Source: an uncultured Clostridia bacterium
GTDB taxonomy: Bacteria; Bacillota; Clostridia; Oscillospirales; Ruminococcaceae
Reading direction: 5' to 3'
NCBI GenBank assembly: GCA_947627465.1
Contig: CANQWD010000015.1
Location: 1 to 57,611 of the forward strand
DNA length: 57,611 bases
Shown here: piece after piece, positions 6,122-21,478 of the stretch
Layout: each line of letters begins with the position of its first letter
Numbering within the stretch: the first letter of the stretch is position 1
The notes under the pieces: generated by a model
Databases searched by the model: none
What the model saw: the letters and a program-made list of their open reading frames with translations, nothing else
Told to the model about the DNA's origin: nothing
Position numbers and translations under genes: made by a program

Positions 6122-6149
6122 ATTCAGCACCTCTTTCTAAAATATATAC

Positions 6150-6162
6150 GCACTTGTAGTGC
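6150..6162. promoter_or_regulatory. Candidate operator, GCACT-TGT-AGTGC palindrome
   Basis: A perfect 5-bp dyad lies between the divergent xis A and the int A transcription unit. The same GCACT word occurs four times (9069, 9077, 9090, 9162) around the xis B promoter, suggesting a shared type of regulator. Confidence 0.4.
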
Positions 6163-6188
6163 ATATTATCATTATATCACGTCTAATT

Positions 6189-6528
6189 ATGAGTTTTCTG
6201 TTTATGTTGGAGAATGTGAGCGGCGTTGATTTTTCGATCAACGTAAAAAAGCCCGGCGAAAAGTGGGAGTGTTCGATAAATTTCGACGGGCAAGGCGCGA
6301 AACATAATGCCGACTTGTGCCTTTTTTTGGAACGTTGGGCTGAGGAACGCGAAAATTTCCGCACCTACTTTTTCCTCGCTTGAGGATTACTCCCGTTGGA
6401 AAGCGGAAACGCTCGCATACTATTCTCAGACCAACGTCGAGACCGCAGAGCCTTTGGCTTTAGATCTTGAAACGCGCTTAAAAAAGCGTAAAGAATATTT
6501 AGAAAACGAATTGAAAAAGAAAAAGTGA
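6189..6528 (+). pseudogene. Small hypothetical protein split by a frameshift in a T5 run
   Basis: The first frame starts at 6189 (MSFLFMLENVSGVDFSINVK...) and runs to ...ERENFRTYF, then ends at 6383. Removing one T from the TTTTT at 6369-6373 continues the protein as SSLEDYSRWKAETLAYYSQ... to ...LENELKKKK, with its stop at 6526-6528, 11 bases before int A. The joined product would be about 112 aa with a basic coiled-coil end. Both halves have protein-like composition, and the second keeps good spacing to int A. I do not recognise the family. A programmed +1 shift is possible, but decay or an assembly indel is simpler. Confidence 0.55.
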
Positions 6529-6539
6529 AAGGAGCAATT

Positions 6540-7583: not shown

Positions 7584-7632
7584 AATGAAGTAGCCGACCG
7601 TCTTGACGAGTTGGCTACAAAAAACCCGTAAA

Positions 7633-7654
7633 TTGTAGCCAATTTGTAGCCAAT
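7633..7654. repeat. Tandem 11-bp repeat TTGTAGCCAAT x2, candidate integrase arm sites
   Basis: Two exact copies (7633-7643, 7644-7654) lie just past int A, with an inverted TTGGCTACAA at about 7611-7620. One-turn spacing suits binding by an AP2-like integrase arm domain. Confidence 0.5.
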
Positions 7655-7665
7655 AAAATATAACC

Positions 7666-7710
7666 GCCCCGATAAGCCGCATAACATCACGGATTTATCG
7701 GGGCAATTTT
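7666..7710 (+). terminator. Intrinsic terminator after int A
   Basis: GCCCCGATAA (7666-7675) pairs perfectly with TTATCGGGGC (7695-7704), followed by AATTTT. It lies between int A and the att repeat. Confidence 0.7.
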
Positions 7711-7721
7711 GTGAATTTTAA

Positions 7722-7733
7722 TTATTCCCACTC
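7722..7733. repeat. Candidate att site: TTATTCCCACTC, copy of the guaA 3' end
   Basis: Identical to 21467-21478, which encodes the last residues and stop of guaA on the minus strand. Integrase genes flank it on both sides (int A ends 139 bases to the left). It probably marks the junction between elements A and B. The 3' end of guaA is a known integration target of tyrosine recombinase elements. Confidence 0.65.
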
Positions 7734-7770
7734 CTCAAATTCAACCGTATCCCCATTCTCGCAAATAGAA

Positions 7771-7800
7771 AAAACCGCACTGTAATGCGGTTTTTATTTT
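7771..7800. terminator. Intrinsic terminator hairpin
   Basis: AAACCGCA (7772-7779) pairs with TGCGGTTT (7786-7793), followed by TTATTTT. It lies just inside element B. Confidence 0.6.
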
Positions 7801-7836
7801 TATGATATTTATATTCTCTACGGTTTTCAAATTTTC

Positions 7837-7853
7837 GGTATCAAAACGGTATC
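7837..7853. repeat. Paired GGTATC sites, left end of element B
   Basis: GGTATC at 7837-7842 and 7848-7853, 11 bp apart. The same pair with the same spacing and orientation occurs at the other end of the element (21391-21407). Candidate arm-type binding sites of integrase B. Confidence 0.45.
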
Positions 7854-7875
7854 GGAGATTTCAAGCGTATAAAAA

Positions 7876-8286
7876 CTACAAACTTTTAAACACTTCAATA
7901 TTCGAAAATTGTTCTCTCGCAAAATGAATAAGTTGTTCAAACGGGTTGGCCTTATAGTATTCGCCTAAAATCCCGTTAATGATAATATCGTTTGGAAAAG
8001 ATATTTTATAATTGGTTCTCCAACCATCGCGGTAGCCACAACAGTTCCTTTCATCTTCAGGTTTGTTAGAGTATGCTACAATTGCCTCATAAGAAACGAT
8101 CTGCCGCATCTTGATTAAATCCTCATCAGGTATCTCATATTTCTTTGTTCTTGCCATTTTGGTTTTCGGGTCAAAGACATTTGAAACAATTTCTTTATCT
8201 TCAAAATGGATTGTCGCCTTATACTGCTTTTCTCCCGGAAAAAGCGGCTTATGAACATACACTAAACACAACGGATATAATGACAT
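7876..8286 (-). CDS. Hypothetical protein (136 aa)
   Basis: Not recognised. It is acidic/mixed charge with no signal peptide or membrane segment; a central stretch carries CCGYRDGWRTNY. It lies 20 bases downstream of the XRE regulator on the same strand and is probably co-transcribed with it, in the position where integrative elements often carry an immunity partner. Coding is supported by length, by the absence of a competing frame and by spacing. Function unknown. Confidence 0.55.
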   Translation of the reverse strand: MSLYPLCLVYVHKPLFPGEKQYKATIHFEDKEIVSNVFDPKTKMARTKKYEIPDEDLIKMRQIVSYEAIVAYSNKPEDERNCCGYRDGWRTNYKISFPNDIIINGILGEYYKANPFEQLIHFAREQFSNIEVFKSL

Positions 8287-8306
8287 AATAACACCTCGAT
8301 CAAATA

Positions 8307-9008
8307 TTATTCCCGCCCGGTAAACAAAAACGTCAGCCCCACATCGAACTCGCGGACAATGCGAAAAATGTCGGACGTGTTGAGCGGCGCAATCTCGGTC
8401 GGCTTTTTGGAGCGGTCAAACAGATCGGCTATTTTCTTTTCGGAAAGTTTTATAGCGTAAAGGTCATCGGGTGTTTTCCCGAAACGTTCAAGGTTAGAGA
8501 TTACAATACGCGAGACCTGCACTTGCAAGCACCGATACGGCTTATTCGCCGCCGCGCGCCCCAAAATATCGAGAATTTGCTCGTTTTCGGTGAGTGGCGA
8601 GGGCTTGCTCTGCTCCGGTTCGAGGAGCTTTTGACCGTCAAGCTCCGGATTCAAATAGGTAACGGAACAGCCCATATATTTTGCAATTCTCGAAAGGCTC
8701 GCCGCGTCCAGCTCCACACCATTAAGAACACTGCACATCATATCGGGGTGCGCTTTCATTATATAATATACATTTGTTAAAGCATTGGCGTCGTTTGATA
8801 TTTCAGGCTCCTTACCCTCATCGTCTTGAAAGAAGTAGTCAACAGTAACCTGAAAGTATCCTGCCAACTTTTCCAAAATATCTGCGCCTACCGTTGAACC
8901 GGTCTTCCATTTCTTCAAATTTCCCGTACTAATGCCGATTTCCTTTAAAACAGGGGTCGGCTTAACTCCTTTTTCATCACAAAGCTTTATAAATTGGTCA
9001 TAAAACAC
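8307..9008 (-). CDS. XRE-family HTH regulator, element B
   Basis: 233 aa from a GTG at 9008, with AGGAGGG seven bases upstream. Residues about 3-65 are a classic XRE helix-turn-helix (VLKEIGISTGNLKKWKTGSTVGADILEKLAGYF). Two further segments (LDAASLSRIAKYMGCSV and the C-terminal KIADLFDRSKK region) resemble truncated HTH repeats. It diverges from xis-int-mobC-primase, with the strong promoter of that operon between them, so it is the likely repressor controlling excision and replication of element B. Confidence 0.88.
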   Translation of the reverse strand: MFYDQFIKLCDEKGVKPTPVLKEIGISTGNLKKWKTGSTVGADILEKLAGYFQVTVDYFFQDDEGKEPEISNDANALTNVYYIMKAHPDMMCSVLNGVELDAASLSRIAKYMGCSVTYLNPELDGQKLLEPEQSKPSPLTENEQILDILGRAAANKPYRCLQVQVSRIVISNLERFGKTPDDLYAIKLSEKKIADLFDRSKKPTEIAPLNTSDIFRIVREFDVGLTFLFTGRE

Positions 9009-9080
9009 AAAATATCCCTCCTAATTTTGTATATGTTTCACGAAATTGTAACAGCTCGCAAAATAAATGCACTGTCGCAC

Positions 9081-9109
9081 TTGACAAATGCACTATAATG
9101 AACTATAAT
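9081..9109 (+). promoter_or_regulatory. Strong sigma-A promoter of the xis-int-mob operon
   Basis: Consensus TTGACA (9081-9086), exactly 17 bases, consensus TATAAT (9104-9109), about 79 bases upstream of the xis start. GCACT words at 9069, 9077, 9090 and 9162 surround or overlap it and may be operators. Such a perfect promoter must be kept off, consistent with the divergent XRE repressor. Confidence 0.8.
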
Positions 9110-9187
9110 ATAAATATCAACAATAAAGTGAATAAGTTACTATTCATATTATATCACAGTTGCACTAATTTGTCAAGGAAGTTTTTT

Positions 9188-9382
9188 ATGACAAATAAAA
9201 TTTTACTCAACGCGGAAGAAGTTGCCGAAATCCTCGGTATATCGAAGCCCCACGCCTACAAGCTCATCAAAGGACTGAACGACGAACTGAAATCGCGCGG
9301 CTACATCACGGTAGCGGGCAAGATTAGCCGCAAGTACTTCGAGGAAAAGGTTTACGGAGGTGAGCAGTATGCCCGTGTATAA
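9188..9382 (+). CDS. Excisionase-like HTH protein, element B
   Basis: 64 aa, ATG at 9188 after AAGGAAG. MerR/Xis-type helix-turn-helix (NAEEVAEILGISKPHAYKLI) followed by a wing (LKSRGYITVAGKISRKYF). Its last 14 bases overlap int B, so the two are translationally coupled. Expected to act as the recombination directionality factor and possibly as an autoregulator. It is homologous to the element A protein at 5918-6121. Confidence 0.85.
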   Translation: MTNKILLNAEEVAEILGISKPHAYKLIKGLNDELKSRGYITVAGKISRKYFEEKVYGGEQYARV

Positions 9383-10433
9383 GGACGAGAAAACAAATAA
9401 GTGGTTCGTTTCGTGTTGGTACACCGATTGGCAGGGCGTAAAGAAAAAGAAGGTCAAGCGCGGCTTTGAAACGAAACGCGACGCGCAGGATTGGGAACGG
9501 CAGTTCCGCTTGCAAGACAGCGCAAATCCCGAAATGACGATGAACAGCTTTATGGAGATGTACAAAAACGATGTTTCCCCCAAACTGAAAGAAAACACTT
9601 GGCTCACCAAAGAGAACATCATCATAAAGCACATTCTGCCGACTTTCGGTAATATGCGGCTTAGCGACATCACGGCGAAAAACGTCATTGATTGGCAGAA
9701 CCAAATCCGCAAAGAGGGTTACTCCGACACATATTTGAGAACGATACACAATCAGCTTTCCACGATGTTCAATCACGCAGTGCGTTATTACGGACTGAAA
9801 CAAAATCCCGCCTTTGTCGCGGGCGGAATGGGCGCGAAGCGGCGCGGAGAGATAGTATTTTGGACAAAAGAGGAGTATCTGAAATTCGCCGAGGTGATGA
9901 TGGACAAGCCAATCTATTACTATGCGTTTGAGATACTTTATTGGTGCGGCATACGCGTTGGCGAGCTACTTGCCCTTACACCGTCCGATTTCAATTACGA
10001 GAAGAAAACGCTTCGTATCGACGAATCATATCAGCGGCTCAAAGGGCGTGACGTGATAACCTCGCCGAAAACCGAGAAAAGCAAGCGCATAATCAGCGTT
10101 CCCGACTTCCTCTGTGATGAGATCTCCGACTACCTAAAGAGCCTTTACAAGCCTAATGATGATGACAGAATTTTCTGTGAGCTGTCAAAAAGCTCACTCA
10201 ACAAGACCTTGAAGATCGGCGCGAAAGCTGCGGGAGTAAAGGAACTTCATGTGCATTGTTTGCGCCATTCGCACGTATCGCTCCTGATCGATATGGGATT
10301 TACCGCACTTGCGATAGGGGAACGTATGGGTCACGAAACGCAGGAGATAACGCTGACTTACGCGCACCTGTTCCCCAGTCGGCAAGTGGAAATGGCTACA
10401 AAGTTAAACGAGATAAGAAAGGATGATGAATGA
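9369..10433 (+). CDS. Tyrosine recombinase/integrase, element B
   Basis: 354 aa from the ATG at 9369; GGAGG lies at 9355-9359, too close for the in-frame GTG at 9360. Arm-binding AP2-like domain (DWQGVKKKKVKRGF) at the N-terminus, core-binding domain about 55-155, and catalytic domain with CGIRVGELLAL (Arg I), HCLRHSHVSLL (HxxR), MGHETQEITLTYAHLFP (His, nucleophile Tyr). Unlike int A, the C-terminal helix (ATKLNEIRKDDE) is intact. It overlaps the next gene by four bases. Likely catalyses integration at the guaA 3' end. Confidence 0.95.
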   Translation: MPVYKDEKTNKWFVSCWYTDWQGVKKKKVKRGFETKRDAQDWERQFRLQDSANPEMTMNSFMEMYKNDVSPKLKENTWLTKENIIIKHILPTFGNMRLSDITAKNVIDWQNQIRKEGYSDTYLRTIHNQLSTMFNHAVRYYGLKQNPAFVAGGMGAKRRGEIVFWTKEEYLKFAEVMMDKPIYYYAFEILYWCGIRVGELLALTPSDFNYEKKTLRIDESYQRLKGRDVITSPKTEKSKRIISVPDFLCDEISDYLKSLYKPNDDDRIFCELSKSSLNKTLKIGAKAAGVKELHVHCLRHSHVSLLIDMGFTALAIGERMGHETQEITLTYAHLFPSRQVEMATKLNEIRKDDE

Positions 10434-10756
10434 TGTCGGCAAAGGTATATGACGGCAAAGGTCGTTTTCGCGGGAAGATCGTATCGTTCCGCTGTTCCGA
10501 GGAAGAAAACGCTCTGTTAGACGCGGCGGTCAAGCTATCGGGGCTTACCAAGCAGGATTACATAATCAATAAGATCACAAACCGCGAGGTAGTGGTTCAG
10601 CCGAACTCGCGAGTTTACAAGGCGCTCAAAGACACGCTTGCCGAGGTGCTTGCAGAACTGAAAAGAATTGATAGCGGCGGTGGGGTTGACGGTGATCTGC
10701 TTGAAATTATCCGTCTTATCAATATCACTCTTGACGGCGCGAAAGGCGGTGAATAA
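10430..10756 (+). CDS. MobC-like relaxosome accessory protein (ribbon-helix-helix)
   Basis: 108 aa; ATGATG start overlaps the int B stop. KIVSFRCSEEENALLDAAVK followed by SGLTKQDYIINKI is the usual N-terminal RHH pattern of MobC/relaxosome proteins that bind near oriT and help the relaxase open the DNA. The C-terminal half (LAEVLAELKRIDSGGG, then LLEIIRLINITLDGA) may dimerise. It directly abuts the primase start. Element A has no counterpart in the window. Confidence 0.7.
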   Translation: MMSAKVYDGKGRFRGKIVSFRCSEEENALLDAAVKLSGLTKQDYIINKITNREVVVQPNSRVYKALKDTLAEVLAELKRIDSGGGVDGDLLEIIRLINITLDGAKGGE

Positions 10757-12148
10757 ATGTCGGAAAAGGGAAAGACCGCTCCTTATGAGCCTACGGCAAT
10801 AGGCTCGGAGCAGGCCTCAACTCACAATTCTATTATAGCACCAACGAGCGAAAAAGTCAAGTGGTTAAGTGACGAAAATAAGATCGACGAGCCTATGTTC
10901 TGCGAGTGCTTTTGCGAGCATCGCGAGCTGCGGTACTTTGGCGGAATTTTCTGTTCAATTGACGGAGAAGTAAATCCGGAAAGAATACGCGCCGAGATCT
11001 CCCGAACGCTCACGGAGAACGGCATAAAAAGCGGCATTGCGAATAAAACGAACGCGCTGTTTGAAATTCTGAAGCTGCACTGCCACGCCGAGCCGATGAT
11101 CCCGCGCTTAGATGAAATTCATGTTCGCAACGGCGTAATCAAAGTTGACGGTCGAATGGGCGAACCGCCGACGTTCATTCCTAAAAAGCGTTTCTGCGTT
11201 AATCGGCTGAACATTGATTACGATCCCAAGATATGGGAACATCAATACTATCCGGGGAAGTTTATGGACTTTCTCTGCGGTCTGCTAGACTTCGAGGACA
11301 TTCAGACTTTGCAAGAATATCTCGGCTACTGCTTAATACCGTCAACAAAGGCTCAAAAGGCGCTGTTCATCATAGGCAGCGGCGGCGAAGGCAAGTCGCG
11401 TATCGGGGTGGTGTTGAATGAGATTTTCGGCTCGTCTATGCTGTCGGGAGATTTTCAGCGCGTGGAGAACGACAAGTTCTTCCGCTATAATCTTCAAAAC
11501 AAGCTCATAATGAATGATGACGATATGCAGCTTACCGCTCTCAAATCCACGGGCATTATCAAGAACATCATCACCGCCGAAGTGCCTATTGACGTTGAAG
11601 CGAAAGGACATCAGTCTTTTCCCGCCCTGCTCTACTGCCGTTTCGTTTGTTTCGGGAACGGCTCTCCGAAAAATCTCTACGACAAGACAAAGGGCTGGTC
11701 GCGGCGCTTGCTCATTCTCACTACTAAGCCAAAACCTGCAAACCGCGTTGACGATCCGTTCCTTGCGGAGAAATTCCTCGCTGAAAAGGAACAGATATTC
11801 TGTTGGATGCTGGACGGACTGCGGCGGTTGATCGCGAATGGCTACAAGTTCACCGAAAGCGAAAAGACCCGCGCTAACGCGGCGGACTCGCTTGCGGATA
11901 ACTGTAATATCATCGAGTTCCTCGGCGAAGCAGTCGGGTTTGACAAGAGCAAGGTGGTTTCGAGCAGGCTGCTCTATTCGGTGTATGCGGATTGGTGCGA
12001 GGAAAACGGCTTGACGGCTCTGAAACGCGACAGCTTTATTAGCTGGCTTAGATCGAATGAGGGAGATTACCCGTTCCGCCACGGCAACAATGTCTATTCC
12101 GAGGGCAAGCGCGTGCGCGGGTTCGAGGGATTATTCATCAGAACTTGA
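10757..12148 (+). CDS. D5/P4-type primase-helicase (SF3 helicase), element B
   Basis: 463 aa, starting immediately after the preceding stop. The N-terminal ~160 residues carry a D5_N-like region. The SF3 helicase domain has Walker A GSGGEGKSRIG, Walker B KLIMNDDDM and motif C VCFGNGSP, ending in a winged-helix-like C-terminus (SFISWLRSNEG). These proteins initiate or drive DNA unwinding for phage, plasmid and satellite replication. A dense GTAC repeat array follows immediately and is the natural candidate for its origin, so element B may replicate after excision. It replaces the RepA-like ATPase of element A, showing a swapped replication module. Confidence 0.88.
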   Translation: MSEKGKTAPYEPTAIGSEQASTHNSIIAPTSEKVKWLSDENKIDEPMFCECFCEHRELRYFGGIFCSIDGEVNPERIRAEISRTLTENGIKSGIANKTNALFEILKLHCHAEPMIPRLDEIHVRNGVIKVDGRMGEPPTFIPKKRFCVNRLNIDYDPKIWEHQYYPGKFMDFLCGLLDFEDIQTLQEYLGYCLIPSTKAQKALFIIGSGGEGKSRIGVVLNEIFGSSMLSGDFQRVENDKFFRYNLQNKLIMNDDDMQLTALKSTGIIKNIITAEVPIDVEAKGHQSFPALLYCRFVCFGNGSPKNLYDKTKGWSRRLLILTTKPKPANRVDDPFLAEKFLAEKEQIFCWMLDGLRRLIANGYKFTESEKTRANAADSLADNCNIIEFLGEAVGFDKSKVVSSRLLYSVYADWCEENGLTALKRDSFISWLRSNEGDYPFRHGNNVYSEGKRVRGFEGLFIRT

Positions 12149-12149
12149 A

Positions 12150-12345
12150 AAAAGGGTGTACAGAGTGTACATTCCGCATAACCGTGCGGTTTGATAGGTA
12201 ATTTCAAGGCGTACAAAGGGTGTACAAAGATGTACGGAGATGTACAATGTACGGGCTTGTACATCCTCTGTACACCCCGTGCCGAGCGGTGAAGCCTTTT
12301 GCAGAGCGGTATGGCAAGCCCCTTGTACGCCTTGTACACCCTTTT
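12150..12345. repeat. GTAC repeat array flanked by a 13-bp inverted repeat, candidate replication origin
   Basis: Eleven GTAC words (mostly TGTACA/TGTACG) lie in about 190 bp, many 9-11 bp apart, that is on one face of the helix. The ends form a perfect inverted repeat: AAAAGGGTGTACA (12150-12162) and TGTACACCCTTTT (12333-12345). It sits directly after the primase-helicase gene. The small open frames across it are by-products of the repeats. Iteron-type origin is an inference from position and periodicity. Confidence 0.6.
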
Positions 12346-12405
12346 GGGCACTCCGTTTATATTTTTTCTTTCAGCTTTGGAATTTTTGAAAGTGAGGTTT
12401 TTATT

Positions 12406-12570
12406 ATGAAACAGATGATAATAGCAGTAGCAGCATTAACGGCGGGCGCGGGAGCTGCACTTCTTCTCCTGTCGCGCTCGTTTACTGGAAGAACCCGCAA
12501 GCCTTGTATGACGTTCGCGGAACTTTACGAGGACAACATCTGTAATGTAAGTGGAAGCCTGTTCGATTAG
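12406..12570 (+). CDS. 54-aa conserved membrane peptide, element B copy
   Basis: 54 aa, MKQMIIAVAALTAGAGAALL at the N-terminus and NVSGSLFD at the end, with GTGAGG upstream. One membrane-spanning segment (about residues 4-23), then basic RTRKP, then TFAELYEDN. Identical at most positions to the element A peptide (4638-4802), with the same length and the same place upstream of the oriT hairpin and mobV. The TFAELYEDN block is fully conserved. Function unknown. Confidence 0.75.
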   Translation: MKQMIIAVAALTAGAGAALLLLSRSFTGRTRKPCMTFAELYEDNICNVSGSLFD

Positions 12571-12673
12571 GCAGGTCAGAAAAAGAAAGCGGTTACCGCG
12601 TCTTTTCCTTTTTTTCAGCCGTGCCGATTTTCGGACGGGCAGCAAGGTGAGTAAGCCGCGAGAGCGGGGGATT

Positions 12674-12757
12674 GCAAAGGGGGTGCTAACGCCCCTTTGC
12701 CGCAAAGACTTTTGACACGAAGCGAGGAACGAGTGGAGTGTCAAAAGTAACTTTGCG
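12674..12757. other. Candidate oriT region of element B (two inverted repeats)
   Basis: Hairpin 1: GCAAAGGGG (12674-12682), loop GTGCTAACG, CCCCTTTGC (12692-12700). Hairpin 2: CGCAAAG plus ACTTTTGACAC (12701-12718) pairing with GTGTCAAAAGT, a two-base bulge, and CTTTGCG (12738-12757). Hairpin 1 matches the element A copy in the loop, and the one stem position that differs is compensated on the other side. It lies 41 bases upstream of mobV. Confidence 0.62.
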
Positions 12758-12797
12758 TTGTTACCGTCACGATAACGATTTTATGAAAGGAGAACCT

Positions 12798-14093
12798 ATG
12801 AAAAAGACCATAAGCATACGCATTGGCAAAGGCAGCATTTCCCACAATAACCGAAAGTTCGTAGCGAAGAACGTTGATGAAAAGCGCGTCAAAGATAATG
12901 TGATCCTGTGCTGCGAGAATCTTAAAAACGTTTATGATGATCTGTTTGGCGCGGCACTGGCGGAATACAACGCCAAGCAGAAAAGAAAAGACCGCCGCAT
13001 TGAGAACTATCTTGACCACATCACGAACGGCAAACAAGAGAAGCCGTTCTATGAGCTTGTCTTTCAAATCGGCAATAAGGACGATACTTCGTGCGGCACT
13101 CCCGACGCGGAGATCGCGACGAATATTTTGCGCGAATATTATGATGATTTTCTGAAACGAAATCCGCACATCAGAGTGTTCAATGCCGTTATACATCTTG
13201 ATGAAGCTACACCACATCTTCATGTTGACTTCGTTCCGTTCGCCACAGGGCAGAGCCGCGGACTTTCAACCCGCAACCCCCTGAACAAGGCTCTGGAGCA
13301 ACAAGGCTTTTCCGCAAAGACTAACCTTGAAACGCCCGCAAAGCTGTGGACGGACTCGGAAAAGCAGCAGCTTGCCGAGATTATGCTCAAGCGCGGTATC
13401 GAGTGGGAGCAGCTAGGAACGCACAACGAACATCTTTCCGTCCTTGACTTCAAGAAGCAGGAACGCGCGAAAGAGGTCAAGCATTTGGAGAACGAGATCT
13501 CAAACAAAGACCTGATATTGGAGTGGCGCAAGGAAGCTATTGAGCGAACAGAACAAGACCTTGACAAACTCGGCTCAGAGTGCATGGAGAAACGAGCCGA
13601 GGTCGAGCAGCTTGACAGCGAGATCTCCGAAAAGGAGAACATCAAAGCCAGAACGGAAGCTACGCTTGCCGAAAAGCAAGACATTCTCAATAAAAGCGTA
13701 GAAAAGATCGTTAAGATCAATACTATCGACCACATCGAAACGGGCAAGACGGTGTTCGGGGGCAAGGTCACAATCTCGCCCGATGATTACGATAGACTGA
13801 CCGATCTCGCGAAAAAGCAGATCGCTGCCGAGAATCGTGAGGGAGAGCTGACCGCCGAGGTAACAAAGCTGAAAAAGGAAAATGAGAAGCTGTCCTCCGA
13901 GAACAACACTCTCCGAGAGCAAGTCCAAGCTGCACGGTCTCTAAAATTTTCTTTTTCGGATCTGCAACGTGAACTTGAAACTCTTAAAGAACGCTATCGC
14001 AAGGTGATTGAATTTGTCGAAAGTCTTGGTTTAAAGGATAAGTTGGAGCGTTTTTTGCACTTTAAAAGCACAAGCATAAACAAACGACGCTGA
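12798..14093 (+). CDS. MobV-family relaxase (Mob/Pre), element B
   Basis: 431 aa; ATG at 12798 after AAAGGAG. N-terminal MobV domain with HNNRKF, FYELVFQIGNKDD and the metal/catalytic motif HLDEATPHLHVDFVPF. After about residue 225 comes a coiled coil (LILEWRKEAIERTEQDLDKL, EKQDILNKSVEKIVKINTID) that is nearly identical to the element A relaxase, whereas the N-terminal domains share far less. The relaxase should nick the hairpin region upstream. No coupling protein or type IV secretion genes are present, so the element is mobilisable rather than self-transmissible. Confidence 0.92.
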   Translation: MKKTISIRIGKGSISHNNRKFVAKNVDEKRVKDNVILCCENLKNVYDDLFGAALAEYNAKQKRKDRRIENYLDHITNGKQEKPFYELVFQIGNKDDTSCGTPDAEIATNILREYYDDFLKRNPHIRVFNAVIHLDEATPHLHVDFVPFATGQSRGLSTRNPLNKALEQQGFSAKTNLETPAKLWTDSEKQQLAEIMLKRGIEWEQLGTHNEHLSVLDFKKQERAKEVKHLENEISNKDLILEWRKEAIERTEQDLDKLGSECMEKRAEVEQLDSEISEKENIKARTEATLAEKQDILNKSVEKIVKINTIDHIETGKTVFGGKVTISPDDYDRLTDLAKKQIAAENREGELTAEVTKLKKENEKLSSENNTLREQVQAARSLKFSFSDLQRELETLKERYRKVIEFVESLGLKDKLERFLHFKSTSINKRR

Positions 14094-14204
14094 TTCTTCC
14101 ACCAGAATTTAAACAAGTACTTACTTTTACGTCAAGTGCTTGCCGATTTACATATTGTTTAATGAATAACTCTCCGATATATGTAATATAATAATACTTA
14201 CAGT

Positions 14205-14294
14205 AAAACCTTGCTAATATTAAACTCTGCTGTTTAGGGAATTTTTTGTTTTACTATTTGAGTAGCATTACTTTACAAAGGTTAGCAAGGTTTT
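14205..14294. repeat. 13-bp perfect inverted repeat around an AT-rich 64-bp core
   Basis: AAAACCTTGCTAA (14205-14217) and TTAGCAAGGTTTT (14282-14294). It lies between mobV B and a small ORF, at the border of the mobility module and the restriction-modification cargo, where base composition turns AT-rich. It may be a regulatory stem or the trace of a cargo insertion. Confidence 0.45.
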
Positions 14295-14328
14295 ATTGGA
14301 AGAAAACAGCAATTTTGGAAGGGAAAGT

Positions 14329-14580
14329 ATGGAAAAAACGATAGCTCAAAATATGATTGATATTTTAACCTTGCATAGGCAAAAAAGTGTGTGGTATGGA
14401 GACATTAAAATAATAGAGGAATGTGCTATGAAATCAAATGTTCAAAAAAAGCACCCTCAAATAACCATACAATGTATATTGAATGCACTTGATAATTCAA
14501 AGTATTTTGAGAAAAGTTATATTGTTTCCGATCACACCGGTAAAAAAAGAAAGTATAGGTGTTTTACCATTAAATCATAA
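14329..14580 (+). CDS. Small basic hypothetical protein next to the RM operon
   Basis: 83 aa from the ATG at 14329 (GGAAGGGAAAG upstream). It begins MEKTIAQNMIDILTLHRQKS and ends KKRKYRCFTIKS. Rich in Lys/Arg, with a predicted helix-rich core (TIQCILNALDNSKYFEKSY) that could be a winged helix. It converges on the GHKL ATPase gene with one base between the stops. AT-rich like the cargo. It could be a controller of the restriction operon, but I cannot assign a family. Confidence 0.5.
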   Translation: MEKTIAQNMIDILTLHRQKSVWYGDIKIIEECAMKSNVQKKHPQITIQCILNALDNSKYFEKSYIVSDHTGKKRKYRCFTIKS

Positions 14581-14581
14581 A

Positions 14582-16564
14582 CTATTCTTGCTCAAGTTTA
14601 TCAAATATTTCGATTAGTGGTTGTGCTTGCCTATTTGCTGCAATGTATTCGCTATAAGCCTTAAAAGCGTTTTGAATTAATTCCTGATAATAAACTATCC
14701 GAGCATTCAACGGCTTAATAATATTATCAACAATGGTTCTATTATCCAAGCTATCATTATTATCAATCGGACGACCTACAACAAAAAGTATTTCAAATGC
14801 AGAATTTTTGTAATTTAATTCATAAAGCGCTTTTTGCAATGCATCATGATACTTTTTCACCTGTTTAACAACCTCATCGGTTTTAATAATTCTATCTGCA
14901 CGCTTCAGCTCAATTACTATATGTTTTCCTGCGCTTTGTCTATAGCCCAAATCCAAACGTGCATTTTTTTCTTCTAGCGTTAATGAGTCAATTTCGTGCT
15001 GTAGTGCCTTTTCAACTATGGTTTCCATGTATTCTGTATTCTCCACTCTCTCCCAGGAAGGGTCGAGCAGCCAAAGATGATTGAAAAGATGTTCCTGCAC
15101 AACTTTCTCAAGTGCATTTTCTTCTGTGATATTTTGAAATTTTTTTACAACCTCCATTCTTTCTTTTATGATTTGATAGTAGAGAGTAGCCTCAATCTCA
15201 TCCAATCCCGTAAAAACGTCTTTAAATATCTCGAAATTTTTGGCATCAATGCTATCAATAGCACTTAAATGCCGAGTATACTTAAATTTCTCAAACGCCA
15301 ATATACTGTATTTGAGTATTTCGCGTTTTTTGTCATCGTCCGCAATAATCTGGTTTACCTTTCCAAACATCTTCCTGGCATATTGTTTATCATCCCCTTT
15401 TAAGCCACAAATCCATGTATCAATTACGGGAAGTAACTCCACTGCTTTCTGTTCGCCTGTTTTATTTCTGAGTTCGGTCCACTTTCCCTCTATATACTTT
15501 AATTGATTGTATACAAAATCTCTTAGTGCTGTAAATCTTTCGTCATCGTGTCTGTATTCTTGACGATTACTGGTTGCCATATCGTCCATATCATCATCGT
15601 CAAAAAAATCTGCATTGATCTCTCCTATTAAATATTTTGAATACAATCCGCCCTCAGAGTATTCGCCAAGAATATCTTCCTGCCCAAGCTTTCCTCTGAC
15701 CAAAATAATAATTTTGTTTAAATTGTCGTCGCCTTCCTTTAAATCACCAGACGAGTTCACCGATCCAATCCACCCAGATATCCGGTAATTTTTTGCGCCG
15801 CATGAGACGATGTTTTCTAACGATTCAATATGAACAGCATTATTACAATAATCAGAGTATTTCTTACTTTCCTCACCAAAATACCAGATATAAGCCAACT
15901 TGTTGAAATAGCCCCTATCTTGAATAGTAACAGTTTCACCATTTACACGAACAGTAAAGTTAAACTCATCACCAATTATTCCAAAACGTCTGGCAACTCT
16001 TTTCTTAATATACGTTTCTGTTAATGTTGAGGTATTCTTTTTCAATTTTTTTAGAATAATCTTTGTTCCTGTTTCATTTAGTTCATTTTCAGTCGTATCA
16101 ATTGGCTCGGGATTGTATGATTTAGACATGTTAGAATTATCATCCCTTATGGCGGCTTCAATTTTCTTGCTATCCATTCTAAACCCATTTATTTCGAACT
16201 CTCCATTCTTTTTCTGCTTTCTGGAGATTACATCTATCTCTTGGGCGATAGAGAACATAGAGAGCTTCCCTATTCCCTTTCTCCCCATATACCTGCGCTT
16301 ATATTTAGGAGACTCTAACGATTCTTCCCTCTTTCTGTGACCTACATATAAGAATTTGTTGTTTATATCATAAATATCCATGCCGCAACCGTTATCTTCG
16401 ATAATTATTTTATCCTTATCTATAGTAATATCGACTTGATTCGCATCAGCGTCCCAAGAGTTTGCAACAATTTCTGACAAAACTGCCGGAATATTACTGT
16501 AAAGGTTTATTCCAAGATGATTAAGAACATTTAAACTTAACGACATCGTGTACTTTTCACTCAT
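14582..16564 (-). CDS. MORC/MutL-like GHKL ATPase with C-terminal PD-(D/E)XK-like nuclease domain
   Basis: 660 aa; AGGAGG precedes the ATG by 9 bases. GHKL motifs: N box EIVANSWDADA (about 27-38), DNGCGM (about 57-62), GRKGIGKLS (about 93-101) and GTKIIL. About residues 530-560 carry LDLGYRQ...HIVIELKRAD, which fits the D...(E)xK core of PD-(D/E)XK nucleases. Bacterial MORC-like GHKL ATPases with fused nucleases are known beside cytosine methyltransferases in restriction systems (described by Iyer, Abhiman and Aravind as relatives of eukaryotic MORC). It is the last gene of the minus-strand operon, 2 bases after a methyltransferase. Inferred role: ATP-dependent clamp or effector that cleaves unmethylated DNA. 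Confidence 0.82.
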   Translation of the reverse strand: MSEKYTMSLSLNVLNHLGINLYSNIPAVLSEIVANSWDADANQVDITIDKDKIIIEDNGCGMDIYDINNKFLYVGHRKREESLESPKYKRRYMGRKGIGKLSMFSIAQEIDVISRKQKKNGEFEINGFRMDSKKIEAAIRDDNSNMSKSYNPEPIDTTENELNETGTKIILKKLKKNTSTLTETYIKKRVARRFGIIGDEFNFTVRVNGETVTIQDRGYFNKLAYIWYFGEESKKYSDYCNNAVHIESLENIVSCGAKNYRISGWIGSVNSSGDLKEGDDNLNKIIILVRGKLGQEDILGEYSEGGLYSKYLIGEINADFFDDDDMDDMATSNRQEYRHDDERFTALRDFVYNQLKYIEGKWTELRNKTGEQKAVELLPVIDTWICGLKGDDKQYARKMFGKVNQIIADDDKKREILKYSILAFEKFKYTRHLSAIDSIDAKNFEIFKDVFTGLDEIEATLYYQIIKERMEVVKKFQNITEENALEKVVQEHLFNHLWLLDPSWERVENTEYMETIVEKALQHEIDSLTLEEKNARLDLGYRQSAGKHIVIELKRADRIIKTDEVVKQVKKYHDALQKALYELNYKNSAFEILFVVGRPIDNNDSLDNRTIVDNIIKPLNARIVYYQELIQNAFKAYSEYIAANRQAQPLIEIFDKLEQE

Positions 16565-16566
16565 GA

Positions 16567-17625
16567 TTAATTTCCTCCTAATTCTATGCCGTGTTCTAAC
16601 AAATGATTAACAATGGAAATGCCGATTATTTCTCCCAAACGTACCGGAACAGCGTTTCCAATGTGCCTAGCTATATCACTCATAACTGCCGGATGATCAG
16701 GATCAATAAAATCATACCAATCAGGAAAAGTTTGCAGTAATGCCCCTTCCCTCAACGATAATGCTCTATCTTGTTCGGGATGCCCATATCTTCCTGTTCC
16801 ATAATTATGGAACTGAGTTGTTATTGTTGGACCAATCTGTTGCCATGTCATTCTGCCATAAACGGAACTGTATGTTTGCCCGGTTTCTCGTTTGTGACAT
16901 TCACACCTCAATCTCTCTGGCCAATCCCTCCATGTTCCTCCGGGAACAGAGTGTTGAATTCGCTCAAGATTGATCTCGGATAACCCGGCTGCTCGGTGTA
17001 ATGGATCATTCGGATCAGCTTCTCCCGCTGCAATCGGCGGAAGGTCACCGATAAAATCTTCAACATGAATGTTATTTCTATCATGTGTTGGCTCAATAAT
17101 ATTTATATCGCCCAAAATTGAGCCGACCAGTACAAACCTTCTACGTGTTTGCGGAATACCATAATCCGGACAATAGATAACTCTATAATCCGAATGAAAT
17201 CCATTTCTGTTAAGTATCTCCAGGAACTCCCTAAACACATTTGTTTCTTGAATTTGCGGGACATTTTCCATAGAAACAATTGTAGGATGTACTTCTTCTA
17301 TTAATCTGCCATATTGCAAAAGAAGATCATATTTTTCATCGTTGTGATTTCTGTTACCTAATTTAAATCGCATTTGTGAAAAGGGTTGACAAGGTGCACA
17401 ACCGACCAATATCCTTGTTGCATCGGCAGCATATAAATCAACAATTGTTTCACCGTTTACATCGCGAATGTTTTGAAGATGATAATCAACCTCGTTATTA
17501 TGTTCATATGTATATTGGCATGTAGGGTCAATATCAAAGCCCGCAATTACATTCAGTCCCGCATCAAGTAATCCGCGAGTTAATCCTCCCACCCCACAAA
17601 ACAAATCCACAATCTGTGCTGGCAT
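16567..17625 (-). CDS. DNA cytosine-5 methyltransferase (third of the cargo operon)
   Basis: 352 aa. Motif I VDLFCGVGGLTRG, motif IV GCAPCQPFSQM with catalytic Cys, motif VI MENVPQ, motif VIII PQTRRRFVLVG, motif IX/X ALLQTFPD and IGNAVPVRLGEI. The target recognition region (about 185-290) has no similarity by eye to the other two, so a different target is likely. It is coupled to the GHKL ATPase gene downstream (stop inside the next ribosome binding site) and follows the fusion protein by 29 bases. Markedly more AT-rich than the chromosome. Probably the cognate protector for the MORC-type nuclease. Confidence 0.93.
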   Translation of the reverse strand: MPAQIVDLFCGVGGLTRGLLDAGLNVIAGFDIDPTCQYTYEHNNEVDYHLQNIRDVNGETIVDLYAADATRILVGCAPCQPFSQMRFKLGNRNHNDEKYDLLLQYGRLIEEVHPTIVSMENVPQIQETNVFREFLEILNRNGFHSDYRVIYCPDYGIPQTRRRFVLVGSILGDINIIEPTHDRNNIHVEDFIGDLPPIAAGEADPNDPLHRAAGLSEINLERIQHSVPGGTWRDWPERLRCECHKRETGQTYSSVYGRMTWQQIGPTITTQFHNYGTGRYGHPEQDRALSLREGALLQTFPDWYDFIDPDHPAVMSDIARHIGNAVPVRLGEIIGISIVNHLLEHGIELGGN

Positions 17626-17654
17626 ACTAATATCACCTTCTTCCCATTTAATAA

Positions 17655-19907
17655 CTATTTCACGAATCTGATCTGCACATTCAACTTCAACATCTGTCGC
17701 CCATTATCCTCATATATTTTACCAAAGCCGTGCCTGCTTTGACTCGGAGTATCAAATCGAGTATTGTCAAACATATAGTTCATAAAGGCATTATGATTAT
17801 AGATGTGATAGCAAACCACATCTCCGTCCTCCTTGACGATAATATAACCGCCCGTAGCTTCATAATCCCCTGTCCAAAGAGTACTGGGAACCATTCCGAG
17901 GGCAATGTTAGTCAACAAATTTTTAAGCTTATGCTTAAGATATACGCTGTTGTCAAGGGTATTAACTATACCGCTTTTTGCAACTATTTCGGTTAAGTCC
18001 GAAATCTTGTTGGCTTTTCCCTCATAGTAAGATTTAATCATTGCCGCAAAAATCTCCGTCATTTCGGACGTTACCATTTTAAGGTTAAAGTCAAAAACCT
18101 CGTTTTCCGTACTATCAAATTCAATGTCTGAACCAAGCAGGTGCAAATACTCGAATTTTTGCTTAAATAATCTAAAACTATTAAATTTTGTTATTTCGTC
18201 AAGTGAAAGCGTATGTCCTGTAATAGCGTATATTAAATTTGTAGTACCCGATGCATTAAACAATGTTGACGGACTGCCAAGCTGGGACTTGATGCTAAAT
18301 CCAAAGGTATCATCACGTCCCAACATAATATCGTGAACCATCAAATGAATGTCGGCTTTGTCCTGCGATTTAGCCTTTAAAGACTTACATTTTATGGATT
18401 CGGCAAAACTCCAAACTTCGGGCAATGCGAAAGAACCATCGGAATCTTTCTTTTTCTGCTTTTGATTTTCAATTTCTTTTTTCATTCCTAGAAGCAGCTT
18501 GTTGGTTTGCTCAATAAAACTGCTGATTGGAATTGAACACATTACTTCTCCGGTTTCGGCATTGATGACCTTAACCTCGGTTTCTCGGCTGTATTCAAGC
18601 TTTGAGTCTTTTTCAGAACGTAGAACCTTTAACACATCATAGTAAATGGTAGGTATTTTATTCGTTTCTGCATCCGCAGCATACAGCTTGCCGTCTGCCA
18701 AAAGCTTAAAGAGCGTGTATAGCTCGCTCCATTCGCCGACATTACCTGTCATAACTTCTACTCCTTTATTCATTGTTGTATTATCTTGTTGCTCCAACAC
18801 TGCCAACTGTTTTTTCATAAACTTCGCCATAACCTCCACCGCGGGGATGGTGACAGCGTTCCCGAATTGCTTGTACATAGACCCGTCCGCAAGCCTATCC
18901 GGGAAAGAAAATGTGTCCTCGCCCGTCTTTTCGTCAATAAAGGCATAATTGATAAACCCTTGCAGTTTGCCCCATTCACGCGGAGTCATCGCTCTAATGC
19001 CTTTGTCATTGAGCGGTGTTTGTTTTGAGGGAACTACCTTTCCCGCAACACCCTCTTTGGGGTCTATAACGAGATTACGCTCTTTACCGGAACCGCCGGT
19101 TGCCAGTATAGCGTTTGATACGGGATGCTCTATCTCGGGAAGATTAACGATTCTATATCCGAAACCGTTGCCTTTTCCTTCGTGACGCGCTTTGTGACGT
19201 TCCAATGTTTCAACGTAGCCTGAGGACAGAAAGTACTTGTCGTCCGCGTTCATTTCAAGCAGATCATTTAAGTCTTCATAGATTTTTTTCTCGCGCTTGT
19301 TTGGGAGGGCATTTGGCAGGCTGTCAACTTTATCTCCGAAATACTTTCTGCTAAATCCCATTATGTACACTCTCGGACGATTCTGCGGTACGCCGAAATT
19401 TCGCGAATTTCTCACGAAGTCCTTTGCCGTATACTCAAGTGTACCGTCCTCACTTTTGGTAACCCCGATCACTTTATAATCAAGCTCATTTATCAAGACA
19501 CTGAGGATGGTGTGAAACGTTTGCCCTTTATCGTGTGTGATCAGATTGTCCACATTCTCAAGCATAAACGCTTTTGGCTCGGTACGCTTTATTATATCGG
19601 CAATGTCGAAAAACAGCGTTCCGCGAGTTTTGTCGAGAAAACCCTCTTTTTTACCGGCTCGGCTGAACGCTTGGCAGGGAAAACCGGCAAGGAGCACATC
19701 GTATTTTGTCTTTGCAACCTTGTCTTTAAATTCATCGGTGGTAATATCGTTTGTCGGGTCATCACCGTATAAGTGCTGATATGTAAGGCAAGCGTTCTTA
19801 TCAATTTCGGCAGACAGCACATTCTTAAAGCACTTGGCTAATTCGAAGCCTTTGCGAATACCGCCTATACCCGCGCATAAATCTATTGTCTTGTACTTCT
19901 TGCCCAT
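17655..19907 (-). CDS. Cytosine-5 methyltransferase fused to HpaII-family restriction endonuclease
   Basis: 750 aa. Residues about 1-375: C5-methyltransferase with motif I DLCAGIGGIRKGFE, motif IV GFPCQAFSRAG, motif VI MLENVDN, motif VIII PQNRPRVYIMG, motif X FGNAVTIPAVEVM. Residues about 390-750: an HpaII-family endonuclease, recognisable from TGNVGEWSELYTLFKLL, YAADAETNKI, FALPEVWSFAE, DIHLMVHD and FGFSIKSQLGSPSTLFNAS. The nuclease part is about 355 aa, the length of free R.HpaII, and begins MNKGVEVMTG as if a start codon was absorbed. A CCGG-like target is inferred from the family. A protein carrying both activities is unusual for this family. AAGGAG lies 9 bases before the ATG; the previous gene ends 6 bases upstream. 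Confidence 0.9.
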   Translation of the reverse strand: MGKKYKTIDLCAGIGGIRKGFELAKCFKNVLSAEIDKNACLTYQHLYGDDPTNDITTDEFKDKVAKTKYDVLLAGFPCQAFSRAGKKEGFLDKTRGTLFFDIADIIKRTEPKAFMLENVDNLITHDKGQTFHTILSVLINELDYKVIGVTKSEDGTLEYTAKDFVRNSRNFGVPQNRPRVYIMGFSRKYFGDKVDSLPNALPNKREKKIYEDLNDLLEMNADDKYFLSSGYVETLERHKARHEGKGNGFGYRIVNLPEIEHPVSNAILATGGSGKERNLVIDPKEGVAGKVVPSKQTPLNDKGIRAMTPREWGKLQGFINYAFIDEKTGEDTFSFPDRLADGSMYKQFGNAVTIPAVEVMAKFMKKQLAVLEQQDNTTMNKGVEVMTGNVGEWSELYTLFKLLADGKLYAADAETNKIPTIYYDVLKVLRSEKDSKLEYSRETEVKVINAETGEVMCSIPISSFIEQTNKLLLGMKKEIENQKQKKKDSDGSFALPEVWSFAESIKCKSLKAKSQDKADIHLMVHDIMLGRDDTFGFSIKSQLGSPSTLFNASGTTNLIYAITGHTLSLDEITKFNSFRLFKQKFEYLHLLGSDIEFDSTENEVFDFNLKMVTSEMTEIFAAMIKSYYEGKANKISDLTEIVAKSGIVNTLDNSVYLKHKLKNLLTNIALGMVPSTLWTGDYEATGGYIIVKEDGDVVCYHIYNHNAFMNYMFDNTRFDTPSQSRHGFGKIYEDNGRQMLKLNVQIRFVK

Positions 19908-19913
19908 TGGTGA

Positions 19914-20855
19914 TTACTCCTTAAACAGTTTGTAAATATTATCCGCAATTCGCTTAACCACAGGAACGCAAACGGTATTCCCGCATTGTTTGTAAGCCGC
20001 TTCAAGCGGTATGCCCTTAAACTTAAAATCTCTCGGAAACCCTTGAAGAGCCAAACACTCGTAGGGTGTAAGCTTACGAATACCAAAATCATCGCGGATT
20101 AACGGTACACGGTCGTGGTATGTTCCCATATTCGCCTTAAGAGTAGGCGAAAGCGTGTATTTATTAGTTGCAATGCCGCTGTCGTCTATGCGGTAGATAC
20201 CCGTTTTATCGAGAATTTTTCGGTTGAGCGTGTCATAGTACTTATTCCCCGGCTGATAATAGAAAAAATCATCCTCTTTAAAGGAACGGTTCAGAATGTC
20301 CTCAATCCCGATAGTCAGCGGAATTTCCCCAGGGAACTCGAAACGGTTTATCATATCAAAATCCGAAAACGCCGCAATAAATGTGCGGTCGCGCTCTTGC
20401 GGAATATTCCCGTGCGTACTCGCTCCGAGAATGCTGTACTTAACAAAATACCCAAGCTCGGCAAGCGTATTGTAAATGGTGATGAATGTCCGCCCATTAT
20501 CGTGGTAAATCAAGTTTTTGACGTTTTCAAGCAAAATAACCCTCGGCTGCATTTTTTCGGCTATACGGACAATTTCAAAGAACAGATTGCCCCGCTCGTC
20601 ATTGAACCCGCGCTGATAGCCCATAATCGAGAAGCTTTGACACGGAAATCCTCCGAACAGCACATCTGCTTTCGGAACGTCGGTTGCATTAACGCTTTTA
20701 ACATCACGCTCTGCAAGAACATTCGTGAAGTTGTTGCGATAAGTCATACAAGCAAACTTGTCAAGCTCGTTCGCCCAAATCACATCAAACCCTGCTTGTT
20801 TAAACGCGAGGTCGATACCGCCTATTCCCGCAAACAGGCTAACCGCTGTTGCCAT
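19914..20855 (-). CDS. DNA cytosine-5 methyltransferase (first of the cargo operon)
   Basis: 313 aa from the ATG at 20855 (AGGCGG six bases upstream); the longer frame from 20873 lacks a ribosome binding site. Motif I SLFAGIGGIDLAF, motif IV GGFPCQSFSIMG, motif VI LLENVKN, motif VIII PQERDRTFIAAF, motif X QCGNTVCVPVVKRI. The start overlaps vsr by 17 bases. Short target recognition domain (about 185-260). Together with vsr it forms the usual dcm-vsr pairing, in which Vsr repairs T:G mismatches made when the methylated cytosine deaminates. Confidence 0.94.
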   Translation of the reverse strand: MATAVSLFAGIGGIDLAFKQAGFDVIWANELDKFACMTYRNNFTNVLAERDVKSVNATDVPKADVLFGGFPCQSFSIMGYQRGFNDERGNLFFEIVRIAEKMQPRVILLENVKNLIYHDNGRTFITIYNTLAELGYFVKYSILGASTHGNIPQERDRTFIAAFSDFDMINRFEFPGEIPLTIGIEDILNRSFKEDDFFYYQPGNKYYDTLNRKILDKTGIYRIDDSGIATNKYTLSPTLKANMGTYHDRVPLIRDDFGIRKLTPYECLALQGFPRDFKFKGIPLEAAYKQCGNTVCVPVVKRIADNIYKLFKE

Positions 20856-21261
20856 TTCGAACCGCCTTTTCAATCATATCCGCACACTCTTTCAAATTTT
20901 TCTTTATGTCCTTGCCCCAAAAACGCAGAACCGTCCACCCCTCGGACTGTAAATGCTCCGTAACCTCCCTGTCGCGCTCCATATTTCTCTCTATCTTCGG
21001 AATCCAAAACACTTGGTGTGACTTGAAATCGTGCTTGCGTTCCTCCCAGTTGTAGCCGTGCCAGAACTCGCTGTCGCAGAACACTGCGACTTTCTTTCCA
21101 ATGAAAACAATATCGGGCTTGCCGTAGATACCGTTGACGTTCTTTCGATAACGCAAACCGCGCGACCAAAGCTCTTTCATAAGCATTACCTCAATTTGGG
21201 AGCCTTTGTTCTTTACCCGCTGCATATTGTACTTTATTTGTTCGGGGGTTCTCTTATCCAT
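20839..21261 (-). CDS. vsr: Vsr-family DNA mismatch endonuclease
   Basis: 140 aa. N-terminal RTPEQIKYNMQRVKNKGSQIE is the typical Vsr opening. GKPDIVF supplies the catalytic Asp (D51 in E. coli Vsr) and FWHG the catalytic His. The residues that bind structural zinc in E. coli Vsr (Cys66, His71, Cys73) align with Glu, Tyr and Trp here (CDSEFWHGYNW), so this branch seems to lack zinc. The C-terminal GWTVLRFWGKDIKKN completes the fold. First gene of the five-gene methylation/restriction operon; AGGATG precedes the start. It may act in T:G repair or, as in some defence operons, as an auxiliary nuclease. Confidence 0.9.
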   Translation of the reverse strand: MDKRTPEQIKYNMQRVKNKGSQIEVMLMKELWSRGLRYRKNVNGIYGKPDIVFIGKKVAVFCDSEFWHGYNWEERKHDFKSHQVFWIPKIERNMERDREVTEHLQSEGWTVLRFWGKDIKKNLKECADMIEKAVRNGNSG

Positions 21262-21279
21262 AAACGCACATCCTAACTT

Positions 21280-21316
21280 GTACTCAAAGTGTACTCACCG
21301 TAGCCAATCCGTTGCC
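21280..21316. repeat. Phased 11-bp repeats (GTACTC pair, GTAGCC/GTTGCC pair), right end of element B
   Basis: GTACTC at 21280 and 21291; GTAGCCAATCC at 21300 and GTTGCCACG at 21311. Each pair is 11 bp apart. The second pair resembles the TTGTAGCCAAT repeats at 7633-7654. Candidate integrase arm sites. Confidence 0.4.
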
Positions 21317-21390
21317 ACGCCCAAACCTCGCCGAGCCGCTCCCCAAGCCACCTCAAAGCCCCCCGACATCATTCCCGTCTTTGGAAAAAC

Positions 21391-21407
21391 GGTATCAATC
21401 GGGTATC
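21391..21407. repeat. Paired GGTATC sites, right end of element B
   Basis: GGTATC at 21391-21396 and 21402-21407, 11 bp apart, matching the pair at 7837-7853 in spacing and orientation, 60-76 bases inside the att repeat. Confidence 0.45.
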
Positions 21408-21466
21408 AGTTTGCCATTTCAACTAAAATATTCCGCTTAACCGAGCCGAATTTCAAAGCGGGGTAG

Positions 21467-21478
21467 TTATTCCCACTC
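21467..21478. repeat. Candidate att site at the guaA 3' end
   Basis: TTATTCCCACTC, the complement of the last codons and stop of guaA (GAGTGGGAATAA). Identical to 7722-7733. Integration here keeps guaA intact. Confidence 0.65.

Follow-up and report, generated by a model that had tools for sequence, protein, structure and literature searches.

The stretch of DNA analysed here (the window, 57,611 nucleotides) is contig CANQWD010000015.1 of an uncultured Clostridia bacterium (assembly GCA_947627465.1) and carries, at positions 14582-21261, a run of five minus-strand genes for DNA modification and restriction. In transcription order, they encode a Vsr-type mismatch endonuclease, a C5-cytosine methyltransferase (MTase; M1), a second MTase in one open frame with an HpaII-type nuclease (M2-R.HpaII), a third MTase (M3) and a GHKL ATPase-nuclease. 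The list of open reading frames returned all five genes, with an overlap between vsr and M1 and gaps of 6 (M1-M2), 29 (R.HpaII-M3) and 2 bases (M3-GHKL), matching the tight minus-strand packing (2-29 bases or overlaps) described in a first-pass annotation. The likelier start of M1 is the ATG at 20855, over the TTG at 20873. Pfam family PF00145 was found in three genes of the operon (E 4.5e-56, 6.2e-71 and 1.5e-81), and a motif search recovered PCQ, ENV, QxRxR and GNxV in M1, M2 and M3 alike. The Vsr protein scores 139 bits against TIGR00632 (cut-off 98), which makes it a member of that family, and the GHKL protein matches HATPase_c_3 (E 2e-19). The five-gene arrangement is real and not a chance assembly of frames. 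What appeared to be a new five-gene defence system probably resolves into two known ones.

Table 1. Coordinates (window numbering) of the mobile element, the operon and adjoining genes
Feature	Position	Strand	Details
Integrative mobilizable element carrying the operon	7722-21478		12-bp direct repeats at both ends
Tyrosine integrase (PF00589)	9360-10433		within element; Pfam
DUF5906 protein	10757-12148		within element; Pfam
MobV-type relaxase (Mob_Pre, PF01076)	12738-14093		within element; Pfam
94-aa protein, function not assigned, convergent to operon	14296-14580	+	homologue also beside M3 in L054
GHKL protein, R.HgiDII/BbrUII-family restriction enzyme	14582-16564	-	660 aa; GHKL ATPase domain and C-terminal PD-(D/E)xK
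M3, C5-cytosine MTase, putative cognate of GHKL enzyme, HgiDII-like	16567-17625	-	352 aa; PF00145 E 4.5e-56
M2-R.HpaII fused gene	17655-19907	-	one open frame, 750 aa
R.HpaII half of fused gene	17655-18752	-	PF09561 RE_HpaII 1-359/359, 343 bits, cut-off 25, E 2.3e-102
M2 half of fused gene, HpaII-type C5-cytosine MTase	18774-19907	-	about residues 1-378; PF00145 at residues 5-365
M1, C5-cytosine MTase	19914-20855	-	319 aa if from TTG 20873; PF00145 E 1.5e-81
vsr, Vsr-type T:G mismatch nicking endonuclease, first gene of operon	20839-21261	-	140 aa; PF03852 E 5.2e-24; TIGR00632

The HpaII part of the operon was compared with other loci (L numbers below) by a pattern-based scan with the fused protein, which covered one genome per species in 84,980 species and finds close relatives only. 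The scan returned 11 loci, all in metagenome-assembled genomes (Oscillospiraceae, Ruminococcus, Ruminiclostridium or uncultured Clostridia). The order vsr, M2, R.HpaII is kept in every one of them, at identities of 76-86%, 78-91% and 65-89%, respectively. More broadly, 7 of 391 class genomes and 4 of 398 phylum genomes have an R.HpaII match; two of these genomes, one of them the window's own, belong to both samples. The window combines a full-length RE_HpaII domain with a C5 MTase whose family also accompanies R.HpaII at other loci, and M2 is 44% identical to the MTase of an Acinetobacter pittii plasmid HpaII pair. These features identify an HpaII-type restriction-modification (RM) module in which M2 is predicted to methylate CCGG and R.HpaII to cut unmethylated CCGG. 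For the tandem HpaII system of a katablepharid mitochondrion, methylation of CCGG by the MTase is described, together with a slowing of growth by the nuclease that the MTase partly reverses (PMC8099122). Between M1 and M2, L003 (7613-8011) and L004 (2291-2689) encode a 132-aa protein that is absent from the window and is possibly a regulator; it matches no Pfam family over cut-off in either locus and, for the L003 copy, no NCBIfam family.

A fusion of an MTase to an HpaII-type nuclease had been reported for the window, and there it holds: MTase and restriction endonuclease (REase) share one open frame in which PF00145 and PF09561 are both complete, the arrangement of a Type IIC enzyme. It does not extend to the other loci examined. 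M2 and R.HpaII are separate genes in all 11 relatives, as they are in class loci L049-L051, phylum locus L080 (judged by its 365-aa frame) and plasmid loci L057 and L058. All 17 other full-length R.HpaII genes examined are unfused, which puts the fusion at 1 in 18 counting the window; this count excludes L016/L052, L017/L053, L018 and L081, where R.HpaII is partial or interrupted, and three further Acinetobacter plasmid matches (H2-H4). Among the class and phylum matches to R.HpaII, the window holds the sole open frame longer than 400 aa. The window R half was aligned to the separate R genes of four relatives. In L003, the M2 stop overlaps the R start, and at the window junction several insertions or deletions put R in the M2 frame without a stop. 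R.HpaII has retained its own ribosome site AAAGGAG and ATG (18752), 8 bases apart, inside the fused frame, so that the free nuclease can probably be made from this internal start as well as in fused form. When the Type IIP C5 pair Eco29kI was engineered into one chain, ~80% of the MTase and one third of the REase activity were kept, and phage protection was ~100-fold lower (PMC3039593). These figures make a working but weakened M2-R.HpaII fusion plausible.

The second module consists of M3 and the GHKL protein. Over residues 5-656, the latter scores 764 bits against the NCBIfam equivalog NF050001, 'BbrUII/HgiDII family restriction enzyme' (cut-off 550). Below cut-off, this model matches 383 of 391 class genomes (E 0.001 or better, mostly short N-terminal matches), so the cut-off alone counts; over it, the family is rare, with 2 of the 391 genomes, the window's own included. 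The GHKL motifs E31, N35, D57xGxGM and G94RKGIGKLS are invariant in the five aligned members, and the C-terminal D538...(D/E)xK554 is conserved in the same number (5/5). The first-pass annotation had proposed one CCGG-type and one MORC-type system. HpaII-type and GHKL-type enzymes are indeed both present, and the protein has the GHKL ATP-binding motifs of the MORC family, but the MORC signature of the S5 domain (GhXhhpXXRhl) finds no match in its 660 aa, strict or relaxed. An undescribed MORC-type system is ruled out by this missing motif together with the NF050001 assignment.

An M3-like MTase (46-94% identical to M3) lies directly upstream of the GHKL gene in all five over-cut-off neighbourhoods examined, namely the window, L003, L054, L065 (Haloplanus) and L066 (Rhizobium). 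L010, L055 and L056, with a GHKL protein below cut-off or far from M3, were examined and stand outside this count, and 2 of the 13 plasmid records with a GHKL match over 80% of the query were examined. The target-recognition region of M3 is similar to that in L065 and L066. M.HgiDII is a characterised MTase that forms 5-methylcytosine in GTCGAC (PMC5867850). The conserved M3-like neighbour, taken together with this characterised enzyme, leads to the prediction that M3 methylates and the GHKL enzyme cuts GTCGAC. The earlier suggestion that each nuclease comes with its own C5 MTase is borne out. The GHKL enzyme would allow a direct test of ATP dependence in a six-base Type II cutter.

At L010, a 559-aa GHKL protein (6224-7903) is located behind an M3 of 78% identity, and NF050001 matches its residues 7-369 only (295 bits, below cut-off). 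The ATPase part of the BbrUII/HgiDII family is kept and the C-terminal part is different, with no Pfam match; apparently, the effector domain has been swapped behind a conserved MTase. The 94-aa neighbour of the window is 82% identical in L003 and 43% in L054, beside the M3-GHKL pair in both and in a different orientation in L054. It matches no Pfam family over cut-off and has a weak Cas2_II match in PADLOC (E 3e-4). A single-protein scan of viral contigs, which detects close relatives only, gave no relative of the fused protein or the GHKL protein, and one distant MTase matching M1.

The two modules differ in their linkage and in their divergence. M3 adjoins the HpaII genes in 2 of the 11 related loci, and all five genes are present in one, where M1 is broken; a conserved five-gene set is thereby ruled out. 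In L054, L065 and L066, the examined stretch has GHKL and M3 but neither vsr nor HpaII. Between the window and L003, synonymous difference is near saturation (0.62-0.70) for guaA, vsr, M2, R and MobV. M3 shows 0.76 where it begins (5') but 0.03 where it terminates (0.03-0.05 over its 3' third), and the values are 0.20 for GHKL and 0.40 for the 94-aa neighbour. DNA identity is 0.93-0.98 at ~17.1-15.0 kb, 0.88-0.89 to 14.4 kb and 0.72 beyond; the rest of the aligned genes range from 0.62 to 0.88. All the genes compared show little non-synonymous change. The lower divergence of GHKL and the 3' end of M3 indicates that the GHKL end was exchanged more recently than the HpaII end, pointing to a recent recombinational exchange of the second module and to separate histories of the two.

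The vsr gene follows the HpaII module. A homologue lies upstream of M2 and R.HpaII in all 11 relatives, 9 of which have no GHKL gene in the stretch examined; further vsr genes accompany the HpaII module in L050 and L051, and none was found in L049, L057 and L058. Presumably, a vsr-like gene also stands beside the HpaII system of H. parainfluenzae. On the gene neighbourhoods of the relatives, we assign Vsr to the HpaII module. The window copy is the only vsr found in its genome. A published Vsr cleaves CTGG/CCGG mismatches, and Vsr enzymes can be multispecific (PMC6116569). Given this multispecificity and the single gene, one Vsr may serve all three MTases.

M1 is intact in five of the 11 relatives, broken in two and absent from four, with M2 and R.HpaII genes open in the six that lack an intact M1. 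Its retention in only 5 of 11 implies that R.HpaII does not need a third MTase. In relatives, a companion nuclease that is absent from the window has the fold of the PspGI, EcoRII, Ecl18kI and BsaWI enzymes (CCGG fold). Across 12 loci (the window and the 11 relatives), intact M1 and intact CCGG-fold nuclease occur together in five, neither in five and one alone in two (window, L002). The Fisher p value is 0.08, or 0.015 without the window, for loci that are related to each other, and the tendency of M1 to accompany this nuclease is suggestive only. The label 'CCGG-type' rests on what we take to be the recognition sites of Bsp6I, NgoFVII, PspGI, EcoRII, Ecl18kI and BsaWI. M1 as a certain partner of the CCGG-fold nuclease was dropped, as other relatives of that nuclease adjoin other MTases: an HpaII-like C5 MTase in L068 and L070, and an N4/N6-type MTase (by motifs) in L072. 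In L069, no MTase is annotated beside it. The L068/L070 MTase is 67-69% identical to the MTase beside R.HpaII in Lactococcus petauri (L058). M1-like MTases at E 1e-60 or better occur in four other class genomes, and the two such loci examined (57% and 51%) show no clear partner nuclease. With moderate confidence, M1 of the window can be regarded as an orphan MTase, most likely stranded by the loss of a CCGG-fold partner nuclease.

The operon was held to be cargo of a mobile element, and its surroundings agree. An exact 12-mer at 7722-7733 and 21467-21478, the latter at the guaA 3' end, has its sole two exact copies in the window at these positions; the chance figure for the 12-mer covers up to two mismatches (5 found, mean 3.98), and the exact pair lies outside that test. 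An integrase, a relaxase and direct repeats on either flank, at an established insertion site, mark this stretch as an integrative mobilizable element (IME). IMEs are known to use the guaA 3' end and to carry Type II RM systems (PMC5704250). A second element adjoins in tandem (window 1-7721), with an integrase (6525-7583), an AAA_25 ATPase (4846-6000), a Mob_Pre-like protein judged by sequence (3034-4485), a helix-turn-helix (HTH)-C5 MTase (1665-2924) and a nuclease of the Eco47II type with a split reading frame (C-terminal half of RE_Eco47II at 855-1292). In another genome of the class (L053:1034-5138), a guaA-like gene (64% identical) is followed after ~2 kb by an HpaII nuclease fragment, possibly a relic at the same site.

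Taken together, the locus is best explained by two neighbouring Type II RM systems on an IME at guaA, accompanied by an orphan MTase and a shared Vsr, a reading to which we give a probability of roughly 0.82. It is based on sequence, that is, on families, gene order, motifs, the lack of fusion in the relatives examined and mosaicism; from these we infer the cutting and methylation specificities, the dual translation, the status of M1 and a role in phage defence. M2 would methylate CCGG and R.HpaII would cut it unmethylated, both translated as one chain, probably with some free nuclease; M3 would methylate GTCGAC for the GHKL-PD-(D/E)xK enzyme to cut where unprotected; Vsr would nick the T:G mismatches that arise from deamination of 5-methylcytosine; and M1 would be a left-over C5 MTase whose partner nuclease was lost. 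Incoming DNA would be broadly restricted, and the systems may also exact a cost when the element is lost; roles in defence and in maintaining the element are both possible.

Several points weigh against this reading. The fused frame is known from one assembly only, and the fused form may be a weak defence. The nearest plasmid relatives of M1 (46-51%) adjoin Bsp6I-, NgoFVII- or PLD-type nucleases where these are named, not CCGG-fold enzymes. The AlphaFold model of the GHKL protein (alignment depth 3) reached a pLDDT of 41 and was not used. Finally, host avoidance of CCGG had to be dropped as a sign of HpaII action. The ratio of CCGG to expectation is 0.20 for the right flank (43 sites vs ~215, both strands counted), 0.42 for the element and 0.64 for the operon; over 95 kb of this genome, taken from five stretches (two chosen for MTase genes), it is 0.31. 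At 1-2 stretches per genome, the ratios are 0.23, 0.33, 0.34, 0.66 and 0.87 in five family relatives and 0.74 and 1.06 in two further genomes, all without an R.HpaII match, and 0.60, 0.80 and 1.04 in three genomes with R.HpaII. Depletion does not track R.HpaII, and it speaks neither for nor against the two-system reading. Strong CCGG depletion is common to several family relatives without an R.HpaII match. In the host chromosome (window 21479-57611 and L090-L094), where CCGG stands at 0.20-0.31, GGCC is almost absent, at 0.03 of expectation.

Among the alternatives, a selfish main role, in which the RM genes act as addiction modules to hold the element in place at guaA and restrict phages only secondarily, is compatible with the two-system reading and deserves serious thought, short of even odds. 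Type II RM systems have been considered possible addiction modules of IMEs (PMC5704250), the HpaII nuclease slows growth (PMC8099122), and the adjoining element brings another C5 MTase and an Eco47II-type nuclease gene; a single-chain enzyme would, by inference, lose both activities together and weaken post-segregational killing. Somewhat doubtful is the view that the fused frame reflects a mistake in assembly or sequencing, or else a recent lesion, and that the living pair is separate, as in the relatives. The 1-in-18 frequency, the retained ribosome site and ATG and the draft state of the assembly (52 contigs) speak for it, and an assembly error on this one contig is possible, but several indels, and not one slip in a homopolymer, set the junction apart from that of L003, and all 750 codons read through without a stop and include the two domains in full.

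It is unlikely that M1 acts as a second guardian, also blocking R.HpaII or covering gaps left by M2. Such a role would fit its intact state near the operon front and its few non-synonymous changes (window vs L004: non-synonymous difference, pN, 0.156; synonymous, pS, 0.746), yet six of the 11 relatives have open M2 and R.HpaII genes with a broken M1 or none. Least probable is one integrated layered defence in which all five proteins cooperate, for example with Vsr and GHKL as MutL/Vsr-like partners and M1 as a shield against both nucleases. In its favour are the close spacing of the genes within a single operon, MORC/paraMORC operons described with GHKL, C5 MTase and Vsr neighbours (PMC2292703) and the stimulation of Vsr by MutL in Neisseria (PMC6116569); the scarcity of the full set, the mutual independence of vsr and GHKL among the loci and the separate exchange of the GHKL half argue for the two-system reading instead.

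Two points would be new here: the exchange of the nuclease slot behind M3 and, provided that the assembly is correct, a naturally occurring single-chain cytosine-5 RM.HpaII; the matches listed in our literature search (titles and abstract openings, few subscription journals) held no description of the five-gene set or of a natural M-R.HpaII fusion. More tentatively, and at rather poor odds, the single-chain enzyme would be made both fused and as free nuclease, the island would swap nucleases behind conserved MTases, and in relatives HpaII-type and CCGG-fold nucleases would probably share protection by CCGG methylation. If true, this would amount to a layered attack on one motif, from which a phage with an inhibitor of a single nuclease cannot escape. 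The history of the locus is readable in its genes: modules carried by mobile elements of gut Clostridia come together, shed nucleases, leave MTases stranded and swap cutters.

Each part of the locus resembles a described system. Like other IMEs at guaA, the element has a tyrosine integrase, the guaA 3' end and Type II RM cargo (PMC5704250), differing by its MobV-type relaxase and by the presence of two such elements in tandem. MORC/paraMORC operons share a GHKL ATPase near a C5 MTase and Vsr, and paraMORC3 likewise has a C-terminal nuclease of the RE fold (PMC2292703), whereas the window protein is without the MORC motif, its operon has no helicase gene, and it scores as a named Type II family. 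HgiDII/BbrUII systems (GTCGAC) have the same GHKL-plus-nuclease protein over the equivalog cut-off and a C5 MTase directly upstream; the window copy differs in following an HpaII module, in its recently exchanged nuclease gene and in a GTCGAC specificity that is only predicted. HpaII-type systems, including the katablepharid mitochondrial one, where a second RM pair also lies in tandem (PMC8099122), place a PF09561 nuclease beside a C5 MTase, and the window departs from them by its single M-R open frame, Vsr and the extra MTase. As in Type IIC enzymes, MTase and REase of the window are expected in one chain; the natural Type IIC entries in the part of the PMC3039593 table covered here are N6-methyladenine (m6A) enzymes, unlike the C5 type of the window. 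To make RM.Eco29kI, the stop/start overlap between the genes of a Type IIP C5 pair was removed (PMC3039593); in the window, the MTase comes first, the fusion (if real) is natural and the internal R start is kept. The fused gene would be a natural counterpart of this engineered enzyme.

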